Source: a virus
IMG/VR virus record: IMGVR_UViG_3300042868_007803
Span: 1 to 42,948 of that record
Reading direction: 5' to 3' (one strand)
DNA: 42,948 nt
This document shows, piece by piece, positions 13,594-21,780 of the stretch. How positions within the stretch are numbered: position 1 is the stretch's first letter; every line of letters begins with the position of its first letter. The position numbers and the translations under genes were made by a program. The notes beneath the pieces were generated by a model that saw only the letters and a program-made list of their open reading frames with translations, was not told where the DNA came from and searched no databases.

Positions 13594-13624
13594 TTTGACA
13601 TTTAAAAAAAAAGTAGTATCTTTG
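13594..13624 (+). promoter_or_regulatory. Bacteroidetes-type promoter of tRNA array 1
   Basis: TTTG at 13594-13597, 19-nt spacer, TATCTTTG at 13617-13624. Nearly identical in sequence to the promoters at 16022 and 21367 that head arrays 2 and 3. Confidence 0.85.
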
Positions 13625-13645
13625 TATCACAAATAAGAAAAACAT

Positions 13646-13654
13646 ACTATTTAT
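13646..13654 (+). promoter_or_regulatory. ACTATTTAT motif
   Basis: Recurring motif 18 nt upstream of tRNA-Met. It shows that the motif is not restricted to protein genes, which argues for a promoter over a translation signal. Confidence 0.45.
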
Positions 13655-13672
13655 TTGTAATAAAATAAAAAT

Positions 13673-13745
13673 GGCGGGTGGCGCGGTTGGATCGCGAAGA
13701 GTCTCATAAGCTCTTATAAACCAGGATCGATACCTGGACGTCGCA
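13673..13745 (+). tRNA. tRNA-Met(CAT)
   Basis: D stem CGCG/CGCG, anticodon loop CTCATAA with CAT at 13705-13707, T stem CCAGG/CCTGG with the atypical loop ATCGATA. The acceptor stem pairs poorly in the middle. It lies between the array promoter and the first micro-ORF. Confidence 0.7.
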
Positions 13746-13783
13746 ACGATTTAAAAAAAATAAAACAATTAAAAAAAAAGATT

Positions 13784-13861
13784 ATGACAACAATTATTAA
13801 CATATTTGAATTTAACGTGATTGAGGATAGAAGCCTCGGTTTGGGATATCTTTGTGTCTAA
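13784..13861 (+). CDS. Micro-ORF of array-1 leader (25 aa)
   Basis: A 25-codon ORF beginning M-T-T-I-I-N-I-F and ending D-R-S-L-G-L-G-Y-L-C-V, followed by a strong terminator 28 nt later. Its end resembles that of the micro-ORF at 16132 (D-R, then L-G-L-G) and its start resembles that at 21473 (M-[TK]-T-[IL]-I-N-I). The repeated order promoter, micro-ORF, terminator, tRNAs supports it as a real unit: a leader peptide of an attenuator or a small expressed peptide. Ordinary ORF callers would miss it. Confidence 0.5.
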   Translation: MTTIINIFEFNVIEDRSLGLGYLCV

Positions 13862-13888
13862 TAATATGTAGTTAGAATGAATTAAAAG

Positions 13889-13919
13889 AAACCCAAACCT
13901 AATAAGTTTGGGTTTTTTT
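13889..13919 (+). terminator. Terminator between micro-ORF and tRNA array 1
   Basis: 10-bp stem AAACCCAAAC / GTTTGGGTTT, 7-nt loop, T tract. The tRNAs from Asp onwards lie downstream with no visible new promoter, so read-through or antitermination is required. Confidence 0.85.
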
Positions 13920-13944
13920 GTTTTATATTGTTATTTAAAAATAT

Positions 13945-14024
13945 GGTATCAGGGGCTGCTGGGTGTGGCTACTTGACTGTCACTCAAGAAAAACAGGTGG
14001 GTTCGAATCCCACTGGTACCGCCA
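13945..14024 (+). tRNA. tRNA-Asp(GTC)
   Basis: Acceptor GGTATCA/TGGTACC, anticodon arm CTTGA-CTGTCAC-TCAAG with GTC at 13979-13981, T stem GTGGG/CCCAC with loop TTCGAAT. One of only two tRNAs here that encode the 3' CCA. Confidence 0.9.
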
Positions 14025-14032
14025 AAATAAAT

Positions 14033-14104
14033 GTCATATTCATCTAGAGGTTAGGATCCTGAGTTTTCGACTCAGTCACACCGGTTCGAATCCGGTATAT
14101 GATA
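14033..14104 (+). tRNA. tRNA-Glu(TTC)
   Basis: Acceptor GTCATAT/ATATGAT, anticodon arm CTGAG-TTTTCGA-CTCAG with TTC at 14066-14068, T arm ACCGG-TTCGAAT-CCGGT. No encoded CCA. Confidence 0.92.
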
Positions 14105-14111
14105 CAAAAAT

Positions 14112-14184
14112 GGGTTTATAATGAAATTGGTGATCATACTTCCCTGATACGGAAGCTTTATAGGTTCAAGTCCTATTAAACCTA
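14112..14184 (+). tRNA. tRNA-Ile(GAT)
   Basis: Acceptor GGGTTTA/TAAACCT, anticodon arm CTTCC-CTGATAC-GGAAG with GAT at 14146-14148, T arm ATAGG-TTCAAGT-CCTAT. Confidence 0.9.
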
Positions 14185-14191
14185 CAAATAT

Positions 14192-14264
14192 GGGGATGAA
14201 GCTAACTTGGTAGAAGCGTCAGTCTGAAAAACTGGAGGATGTGGATCGTAACCACCCATCCCCA
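14192..14264 (+). tRNA. tRNA-Phe(GAA)
   Basis: Acceptor GGGGATG/CATCCCC, anticodon loop CTGAAAA with GAA at 14226-14228, T stem GTGG/CCAC with loop ATCGTAA. Confidence 0.88.
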
Positions 14265-14274
14265 CAAATAATAT

Positions 14275-20130: not shown

Positions 20131-20134
20131 ACAA

Positions 20135-20142
20135 ATAAATAT
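20135..20142 (-). promoter_or_regulatory. ATATTTAT motif, minus strand
   Basis: Recurring motif, 4 nt before the ATG of the minus-strand gene ending at 20130. Confidence 0.4.
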
Positions 20143-20173
20143 TTGGTTTTATGAAAACTATTCATTACTTTTG
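20142..20173 (+). promoter_or_regulatory. Bacteroidetes-type promoter of clpP operon
   Basis: TTTG at 20142-20145, 20-nt spacer, TACTTTTG at 20166-20173. It lies inside the longest possible ORF and so decides that ClpP starts at 20199, not 20151. Confidence 0.75.
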
Positions 20174-20198
20174 TATTGTAATTAAAAAAATAAAATAT

Positions 20199-20867
20199 AT
20201 GTATAATAACAAAACAGATTTTAACAAATTCGCAACATCACATATGGGTATCTCATCTATATACCTTGATGATTTTCAATCGTCTATGACACCTCACATT
20301 TTGGAGGAAAGACCAACAAGAGCAAATCTTATGTCGGTATTTGATAGATTGATGCAGGATAGGATTATTTGGGTAGCAGGACCTGTTGATGAGGGTATGT
20401 CACAAGTTATTCAAGCTCAATTGATTTATCTATCAAATTCAGATCCAAAGAAAGAAATCACAATGCATTTAGATACCCCTGGCGGTTCTGTTAAGGCTGG
20501 GTTATCAATTGTGGATGTAATGGATTATATTCCGAATGACATTAGAACAATTAATACAGGAATGGCGGCTTCAATGGGTTCGGTATTATTAGGTGCTGGT
20601 ACAAAAGGTAAGAGAATGTCATTAAGATTTTCACAGACAATGTTACATCAAAGTTCTGGTGGTGTTAGAGGTAATATTCAGGATGCTAGGATAACTATGA
20701 TTGAATGGGAAAAAATAAATGATTTGTTATTTAATTTATTAGGTGGGTATTGTGGTAAAGATGCTAACCAAGTAAAAGAAGATGCGTCACGTGATTTATG
20801 GTTAAGTTCTGAAGAAGCATTGGATTACGGAATTATTGATGATATTGTTAAAACTAAAAAAGTTTAA
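20199..20867 (+). CDS. clpP: ClpP-family serine protease
   Basis: I start at the ATG at 20199 (M-Y-N-N-K-T-D-F); the in-frame ATG at 20151 lies within the promoter. The 222-residue product has the ClpP fold signatures D-T-P-G-G-S-V, then G-M-A-A-S-M-G-S with nucleophile S125, M-L-H-Q-S-S-G-G with H150, and a likely catalytic D199 in S-R-D-L-W-L-S. Length equals that of bacterial ClpP precursor. In large phages ClpP-like proteins either act as prohead proteases or serve proteolysis during infection; no other prohead protease is visible in this window, so it is a candidate for processing the [LIVM]-x-E leaders, although T4 gp21-type proteases are a different family. Confidence 0.88.
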   Translation: MYNNKTDFNKFATSHMGISSIYLDDFQSSMTPHILEERPTRANLMSVFDRLMQDRIIWVAGPVDEGMSQVIQAQLIYLSNSDPKKEITMHLDTPGGSVKAGLSIVDVMDYIPNDIRTINTGMAASMGSVLLGAGTKGKRMSLRFSQTMLHQSSGGVRGNIQDARITMIEWEKINDLLFNLLGGYCGKDANQVKEDASRDLWLSSEEALDYGIIDDIVKTKKV

Positions 20868-20873
20868 TAACCA

Positions 20874-21338
20874 ATGGGTTTAGAGATTGAAAGAAAGTAT
20901 CTATTAAAAAGAGTTCCCATTGGTATTAAATGGGACTCTATTTTTGAAATTAAACAGTATTATGTATCTGATTATAGGGTTAGGATTAGGACAAATACTA
21001 TAACGGATGAAACTAAATGGTTTTACACACATAAAACTGCGACTGATGACCCTATGGTTTATAGGGAAATTGAAAACGAAATCACTTATGAAGAGTTTTG
21101 GAAATATATCTCAAATAGAGAATCTAAGATTATTCAGAAAACAAGATATGTTAAATATTTTGGTAATGATGGTCTTAAAGTTGAGGTGGATGATTTTAGT
21201 GGTATGAAATTAGTTGTTGCTGAAGTTGAAATACCTTCAGTTGATTTTCAATTTGAATTACCTAAATACGTTAAAAATGATTTAATCCTTGAAGTTACAA
21301 GGTATGCTGAGTTTAAAAATAGAAGATTGGCGATATAA
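20874..21338 (+). CDS. CYTH-domain (triphosphate tunnel) protein
   Basis: A 154-residue protein beginning M-G-L-E-I-E-R-K-Y-L-L, the E-x-E-x-K signature of the CYTH superfamily, followed by the expected alternating charged strands: Y-R-V-R-I-R-T, K-W-F-Y-T-H-K, R-E-I-E-N-E-I, K-T-R-Y, K-V-E-V-D-D-F and A-E-V-E-I. Family members bind triphosphates or long-chain phosphates with metal ions in a beta tunnel (triphosphatases, thiamine triphosphatase, class IV adenylate cyclase). The exact substrate cannot be told. It starts 6 nt after clpP and is surely co-transcribed. Confidence 0.88.
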   Translation: MGLEIERKYLLKRVPIGIKWDSIFEIKQYYVSDYRVRIRTNTITDETKWFYTHKTATDDPMVYREIENEITYEEFWKYISNRESKIIQKTRYVKYFGNDGLKVEVDDFSGMKLVVAEVEIPSVDFQFELPKYVKNDLILEVTRYAEFKNRRLAI

Positions 21339-21366
21339 TAAAACCAAAAAAATAATTAAAAAAAAG

Positions 21367-21397
21367 TTTGACAATTAGAAAAAAAATATTATCTTTG
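21367..21397 (+). promoter_or_regulatory. Bacteroidetes-type promoter of array 3
   Basis: TTTG at 21367-21370, 19-nt spacer, TATCTTTG at 21390-21397. The transcript leader contains a long hairpin (GGAATGTGAAAA with TTTTCACATTTCC). Confidence 0.85.
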
Positions 21398-21457
21398 TAT
21401 TATAAATGGAATGTGAAAAATATTTTTCACATTTCCATAACAAAAAGCAAAAAACTA

Positions 21458-21466
21458 ACTATTTAA
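21458..21466 (+). promoter_or_regulatory. ACTATTTAA, variant of the recurring motif
   Basis: Same position relative to the micro-ORF as in arrays 1 and 2, last base differs. Confidence 0.35.
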
Positions 21467-21472
21467 TATAAA

Positions 21473-21610
21473 ATGAAAACATTAATTAACATATCATTAT
21501 CGTCATTGTATCTATTACAGTCTCTACGCCAAAGTTGTGTTTCGGTATTACCGTTACATCAGTATTGGTTAGTGCTAGGATTTAGTGCGGTGGATATGTT
21601 TACTTGGTAA
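21473..21610 (+). CDS. Micro-ORF of array-3 leader (45 aa)
   Basis: Forty-five codons starting M-K-T-L-I-N-I-S-L-S-S-L-Y-L-L and ending V-D-M-F-T-W. It is hydrophobic and Leu/Ser-rich. The opening resembles the array-1 micro-ORF. A terminator begins 20 nt after the stop. Third copy of the promoter, micro-ORF, terminator, tRNA arrangement. Confidence 0.5.
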   Translation: MKTLINISLSSLYLLQSLRQSCVSVLPLHQYWLVLGFSAVDMFTW

Positions 21611-21630
21611 AACAAGAATATATCTAATTG

Positions 21631-21672
21631 AACCCCCTAAATCCATATAAAGAGATTTAGGGGGTTTTTTGT
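21631..21672 (+). terminator. Terminator between micro-ORF and tRNA array 3
   Basis: 11-bp stem CCCCCTAAATC / GATTTAGGGGG flanked by AA/TT, 10-nt loop, T tract; tRNA-Pro starts 36 nt later. Confidence 0.9.
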
Positions 21673-21708
21673 TTTTGGGGGATTCTTTGACATATTGGTA
21701 TGAAATAT

Positions 21709-21780
21709 AGCGAATGTGGTGTAATTGAGAACACACATTATTTGGGTTAATGAGTTGCGGTTTGAGTCCGACATTCGCTA
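21709..21780 (+). tRNA. tRNA-Pro(TGG)
   Basis: Acceptor AGCGAAT/ATTCGCT, anticodon arm CATTA-TTTGGGT-TAATG with TGG at 21743-21745. The T stem is imperfect (loop TTTGAGT). Confidence 0.87.

Follow-up and report, generated by a model that had tools for sequence, protein, structure and literature searches.

Putative attenuators of phage tRNA operons with leader peptides matching the tRNA arrays downstream

The window analysed here is the whole 42,948-nucleotide (nt) stretch of the IMG/VR virus record IMGVR_UViG_3300042868_007803, in which positions 13594–23447 are occupied by three transcription units built on one plan: a promoter, a leader open reading frame (ORF), a terminator, and a transfer RNA (tRNA) array, all on the forward strand. 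Judging by sequence and folding models, the three modules are very probably ribosome-mediated transcription attenuators of the trp/his type, through which phage tRNA operons would be controlled by the supply of the tRNAs encoded downstream. Attenuation dependent on translation of a leader peptide had been suggested in an initial annotation of this DNA, and is now supported by the complementarity between leader ORFs and terminators, a predicted folding switch, conservation in sister phages, and the match between leader codons and arrays. The proposal that each leader would read the very tRNAs it controls is sharper than the earlier suggestion and is new here. The anatomy, complementarity, leader–array matching, conservation, and recurrence described below are properties of the sequences themselves.

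Organisation of the tRNA transcription units

All three promoters, recognised by sequence pattern, have the form TTTGACA-N16-TATCTTTGT (TTTGACA...TATCTTTG) and match the Bacteroidetes promoter pattern (TTTG ... TAnnTTTG); they lie at 13594–13624, 16022–16052, and 21367–21397, in agreement with the near-identical promoters reported initially. The micro-ORFs of 25, 36, and 45 codons placed behind them were likewise recovered as leader ORF 1 (MTTIINIFEFNVIEDRSLGLGYLCV, 25 amino acids, 13784–13861), leader ORF 2 (MKNTNKNMTRVAKATTKGGDRNTTLGLGCIMSLMDG, 36 amino acids, 16132–16242), and leader ORF 3 (MKTLINISLSSLYLLQSLRQSCVSVLPLHQYWLVLGFSAVDMFTW, 45 amino acids, 21473–21610). Terminators 1 (13885–13919), 2 (16267–16301), and 3 (21630–21667) fold at −14.9, −16.2, and −20.8 kcal/mol, respectively, and each is followed by a T tract, consistent with their earlier description as strong.

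Array 1 (13945–14352) comprises tRNA genes for Asp (the first, at 13945), Glu, Ile (GAU), Phe, and Ile (UAU). Array 2 (16312–17796) begins with Thr at 16312 and continues with Lys, Lys, Asn, Arg (UCU), Val, Ala, Met, Gly, and Gly, together with unclassified RNAs, and array 3 (21709–23447) consists of Pro (the first, at 21709), Gln, Tyr, Trp, Ser (UGA), an HNH endonuclease gene (22305–22946), His, Ser (GCU), Leu (UAG), Cys, and Arg (ACG). The Ile (UAU) tRNA at 14275–14352 was missed by ARAGORN in the window and called as Ile-TAT in the sister contigs L001, L003, and L023, while tRNA-Tyr (21911–21983) was read by eye, Tyr being called by ARAGORN in L001.

Internal promoters immediately before tRNA-Asp, tRNA-Thr, and tRNA-Pro, named in the initial annotation as evidence that would speak against attenuation, were not seen: the gaps between the terminators and the first tRNAs of the three arrays contain no promoter-like TAnnTTTG with a TTTG at −33. 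The claim that the terminators precede tRNAs lacking a new promoter is thus borne out for these three genes and needs correction in one respect, since tRNA-Met (CAU) of module 1 (13671–13745) is located between promoter 1 and leader 1, upstream of terminator 1, and is therefore outside the attenuator. If an initiator, this tRNA could not be sensed by a stall in the ribosomal A site, and it is indeed placed before the attenuator; the C1 × A72 mismatch of the initiator type is present in the tRNA-Met at module 1 of L003 and not clearly so in the copies of the window and L023. Within array 2, tRNA-Ala is preceded by a weak promoter-like site (17075–17106, TATCTTTA / TTTGATTTTTTAATTAAAATTATTATCTTTA), which L003 and L023 have kept and which may act as a weak promoter inside the array. 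The units thus show the arrangement that characterises ribosome-mediated attenuators, namely a promoter, a short ORF, an intrinsic terminator, and genes without a promoter of their own.

Antiterminators and ribosome-dependent folding

The terminator 3' arm is repeated at the end of each leader ORF, and the repeat is complementary to the 5' arm. Antiterminator 1 (GGTTTGGG, 13838–13845) is complementary to CCCAAACC in terminator 1, antiterminator 2 (GGTTTAGGGT, 16207–16216) to ACCCTGAACC, and antiterminator 3 (GGATTTAG, 21578–21585) to CTAAATCC, with p = 0.03, 0.001, and 0.02, respectively, in dinucleotide shuffles; this is the antiterminator pairing, excluding the terminator, that is expected of an attenuator. 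The LGLG residues that two of the peptides had been noted to share are indeed common to both; their source is the antiterminator RNA that the units have in common, not a shared role of the peptides, and peptide homology as their cause was rejected.

For each codon in turn, a stalled ribosome was placed with that codon in its A site, and the RNA that it left uncovered was folded as it would be prior to synthesis of the terminator 3' arm. The terminator 5' arm was paired with the upstream leader RNA (0.74–1.0) for early stalls and mostly unpaired once the ribosome was past, with the predicted switch at about codon 15/16 in leader 1, 22/23 in leader 2, and 32/33 in leader 3. A switch depending on stall position was predicted for each of the 11 leaders in five related contigs. 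By computation, an early stall frees the antiterminator and complete translation blocks it, which is clear in the leaders of the window and the sisters.

Leader peptides match their own arrays

The sensing part of leader 1, TTIINIFEFNVIEDRS (codons 2–16), contains I, F, E, and D; that of leader 2, KNTNKNMTRVAKATTKGGDRNTT (codons 2–23), spells K, N, T, M, R, V, A, and G; and that of leader 3, KTLINISLSSLYLLQSLRQSCVSVLPLHQYWLV (codons 2–32), includes S, L, Y, Q, R, C, P, H, and W. These are the amino-acid sets of the respective arrays, {I,F,E,D}, {K,N,T,R,V,A,M,G}, and {S,L,Y,Q,R,C,P,H,W}, which jointly comprise all 20 amino acids. Residues belonging to a leader's own array account for 56 of the 72 sensing residues, the amino acids of the arrays are covered 4/4, 8/8, and 9/9, and random redistribution of the amino acids among the arrays, with array sizes retained, never did as well as the real assignment in 500,000 trials. 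Arginine, served by two arrays of the window, is encoded by AGA in leader 2, whose array carries tRNA-Arg (UCU), and by CGC in leader 3, whose array carries tRNA-Arg (ACG). The control codons therefore fit the function of the regulated genes.

Conservation in sister contigs

The comparison with sister phages recommended in the initial annotation showed that L001, L002, L003, and L023 carry the same leaders as the window, with antiterminators and terminators conserved too. A lack of micro-ORF conservation, the other finding named there as speaking against attenuation, was thus not seen. The leader, antiterminator, and terminator of unit 1 are near-invariant, and the adjoining tRNA-Met is a different tRNA in L003 and L023. 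Eight amino-acid changes were found in leader 2 among the relatives, all eight inside the amino-acid set of the array. A substitution test confined to M3 gave a weak result (8 of 11 in-set, p = 0.11). In L023, all 20 sensing codons of leader 2 can be read by the array, and its antiterminator reads GGTTCAGG in place of GGTTTAGG; this non-synonymous replacement (TTA, Leu, by TCA, Ser) converts a G-U pair into G-C and makes its pairing to the terminator arm stronger. L001 is without leader 2 and the tRNAs from Thr to Met, while the promoter and the Gly tRNAs are kept.

Searched by exact match and by profile, the micro-ORFs led back to the same sister contigs only, because what is conserved in the leaders is their logic more than their sequence. 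Searches with TROVE and primase retrieved the sisters and L023, and no relatives were found in the genome collection searched for them.

Recurrence in huge phages

More distant relatives were reached by a tRNA similarity search (the 735 kb LR756501) and a protease search (LR745206, LR756502, LR756504, and Prevotella phage Lak-C1). The regions upstream of mapped tRNA arrays were scanned by structure only (terminator, antiterminator, and ORF), composition being unused, which yielded 30 candidate modules in eight phages: the present one, the six huge phages LR745206, LR756502, LR756504, LR756501, LR756500, and LR756508, and Lak-C1. Among these, a MTTSFQQQQQQQINRTD leader stands before four tRNA-Gln genes, MKTINVNIAPVNPQPQDQDPMRKANYVFMIS before a P,D,D,D,D,P,Q,Q,Q array, and MKAMILSLCLSLSLSLQKLG... 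before an L,L,S,C,S,S,L,L array.

Over the 30 modules, the leaders cover on average 97% of the amino acids of their arrays, versus 48% after shuffling (maximum 71% in 200,000), and the mean z across modules is 4.2, versus a maximum of 1.7 in 200,000 shuffles. In all five multi-module phages, the true pairing of leaders and arrays was the uniquely best of all within-phage permutations (1 of 6, 720, 5040, 720, and 120); combined, these tests amount to about 1 in 10^12, a value to be read with the partial dependence of the tests in mind, because LR745206 and LR756502 share homologous modules. The match is confined to the sensing part: 330 of 626 residues before the computed switch codon are in-set (expected 123), compared with 46 of 209 after it (expected 45).

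No leader-like module was found in 120 random windows without tRNAs. No array-spelling leader was found in crAss-like tikkala, bajarodcaudo, cr130_1, KVP40, NootNoot, and Serratia 4S, so the design is not universal; none was found in phage immuto either, where the stretch read had no tRNAs. One structural match in 4S and one in LR756504 (L054), both attributable to chance, do not fit their arrays.

Proposed mechanism and alternative readings

RNA polymerase would start at the host-type promoter and transcribe the leader ORF, whose first 15–31 codons after the ATG would demand every amino acid that the array serves. A ribosome reaching the stop codon would cover the antiterminator, allowing the terminator to form and transcription to end before the tRNAs. 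When a charged tRNA is scarce, the ribosome would stall, the free antiterminator would pair with the emerging 5' arm of the terminator, and the antiterminated polymerase would read into the array, so that the tRNAs in short supply would be replenished. By the resemblance of an element behind several terminators to boxA, polymerase entering the array may also become termination-resistant. We infer that the ORFs are translated, that the terminators work efficiently, and that a stall leads to read-through. In biological terms, the switch might be triggered by defensive cleavage of host tRNAs, by host shut-off, or by codon demand. Of these, defensive cleavage is a strong candidate, since evasion of such cleavage has been proposed as a role of phage tRNAs (PMC10264068). 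The modules probably represent a general phage regulatory class of autoregulated tRNA operons, in which leader peptides sense a shortage of their own tRNAs and host tRNA depletion or cleavage is repaired during infection.

Several observations weigh against attenuation by tRNA supply. Leader 1 contains T, N, V, R, and S, which are absent from array 1, and taken alone it shows a modest match (p about 0.01). Seven codons of leader 3 are UUR, yet no UUR leucine tRNA was detected in the window. Once the RNA is complete, the terminator is favoured over other folds at almost every ribosome position (about 0.95), which means that control, like that of trp, has to be kinetic. Unlike in trp, the untranslated leader is predicted to form the antiterminator and read through, and failure of initiation would also switch the array on; a protector hairpin terminating the untranslated leader, which belongs to the trp subtype only and is no requirement of the class, was not found, the free leader being predicted to be antiterminated. 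A ribosome at the stop codon fails to abolish the antiterminator in a minority of the 29 modules treated with this simple model, the incomplete block being seen among huge-phage modules and the leaders of the window and the sisters being clear. Finally, the huge phages may have common ancestry, so that not all modules would be independent events.

The same attenuator could respond to amino-acid starvation through uncharged tRNA, with tRNA supply a by-product of a general translation-stress response. Leader attenuators of biosynthetic operons sense charging, a stalled ribosome is blind to whether a tRNA is uncharged or absent, and starvation would act on the same switch. However, the regulated genes are tRNAs rather than biosynthetic enzymes, many unrelated amino acids are sampled at once by the leaders, and synonymous codon families track the anticodons of the arrays (AUA versus AUY, p = 0.008; CGN versus AGR, p = 0.016; CUN, p = 5e-6), which favours sensing of tRNA species; all six Leu codons appear in the leader MNNILHINLLNSLCLLGIKLIG, which is followed by five tRNA-Leu genes. 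Starvation as the signal is therefore possible and, on balance, unlikely.

It is very unlikely that the switch follows overall translation status or Rho/boxA-type factors instead of single codons, the match arising from phage codon usage. Untranslated leaders are predicted to read through, as such a switch would have it, and a boxA-like element, ATTCTTTGACATATTG (21682–21697), identified by resemblance only, lies between terminator 3 and the first tRNA, similar elements occurring in several huge-phage modules. Codon usage, however, can account neither for the match of leaders within one phage to their own array over its neighbours (uniquely best among 720 to 5040 permutations) nor for the loss of that match past the switch codon.

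Functional small proteins, which the initial annotation had offered as its alternative and whose terminators would merely separate them from independently transcribed tRNAs, would account for conserved ORFs and strong promoters, but are a very unlikely reading, given that the non-synonymous changes of leader 2 keep the amino-acid set of the array and not the residues, leader peptides like MTTSFQQQQQQQINRTD and LSLCLSLSLSL do not resemble proteins, the arrays have no promoters of their own, and the 3' end of the ORF copies a terminator arm.

Other features of the tRNA region

A stem-loop is located at the 5' start of transcript 3 (21406–21438), with a weaker counterpart in module 2 at about 16063–16090. 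The motif ACTATTTAT occurs at 9053, 11090, 13128, 13646, 16112, and 21458, 5–38 nt before start codons and also upstream of tRNA-Met; it might be a late promoter of the phage or an element acting in translation. Homing endonuclease genes are inserted in the arrays, represented by the HNH gene in array 3 of the window and by a GIY-YIG-like gene, recognised by eye, in L023 (11680–12380); in L023, a homing endonuclease gene sits between tRNA-Met and leader 1.

Directly after array 1, a tRNA-like element with a 4-nt 'anticodon loop' (ACCCTAAACAGGGT) at 14357–14428 is near-invariant across L001, L003, and L023 despite swapped neighbour tRNAs. A conserved RNA of about 210 nt (17512–17723) lies between the two tRNA-Gly genes and has no Rfam match; other conserved non-tRNA RNAs inside the arrays are found at 17200–17265, 22155–22298, and 23008–23085. 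The tRNA-like RNA at 17925–18033, with a T-arm and an acceptor-like stem (GGGGGG...CCCCCC), is kept in sister phages, also has no Rfam match, and stands directly upstream of a TROVE/vWA gene (Ro60-like, phrog_850; 18064–19902), and is a candidate phage Y RNA.

Relation to known systems

The trpL, hisL, thrL, and ilv leaders combine a short ORF with control codons, an antiterminator over the ORF end, an intrinsic terminator, and regulated genes downstream, and in thrL and ilv several amino acids are sensed by one leader. The phage modules have the same order of elements and differ in regulating tRNA genes, in sampling up to nine amino acids per leader, in being carried by phages, and in having no predicted protector hairpin. 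In E. coli pheST, an operon of the translation apparatus is controlled by attenuation through the pheM leader, rich in one residue; leader attenuation is common to both, whereas pheST is a cellular synthetase system sensing one amino acid. T-box riboswitches also tie expression to tRNA state, but bind tRNA directly, without a leader peptide. A T-box was rejected for the modules, as the stem I and T-box sequence that binds uncharged tRNA was not found and the Rfam search of the window gave no T-box, YrlA, or other family above the cut-off except tRNA.

Phage tRNAs have been proposed to evade host anticodon nucleases (van den Berg et al. 2023, PMC10264068), in a text that does not mention promoters, attenuation, or leader peptides; to such counter-defence we would add an on-demand switch. 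The accounts of huge phages rich in tRNAs (Al-Shayeb et al. 2020, PMC7162821) and of Lak phages, the group to which Lak-C1 belongs (PMC8346664), refer to neither leaders nor attenuation. No description of tRNA-gene attenuation by array-spelling leaders was found in the open-access full-text literature searched. While the attenuator class is known, its apparent use on tRNA genes, in viruses, and with array-spelling leaders is undescribed in the open-access literature searched.

Why phages carry tRNAs has been debated for 50 years. An array-spelling leader would show which tRNAs a phage expects to run short and suggests their on-demand production, linking phage tRNAs to tRNA-cutting defences and opening the question to simple reporter tests. 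The modules would also constitute a natural multi-input sensor of tRNA supply and could offer a way to predict which tRNAs form one operon.

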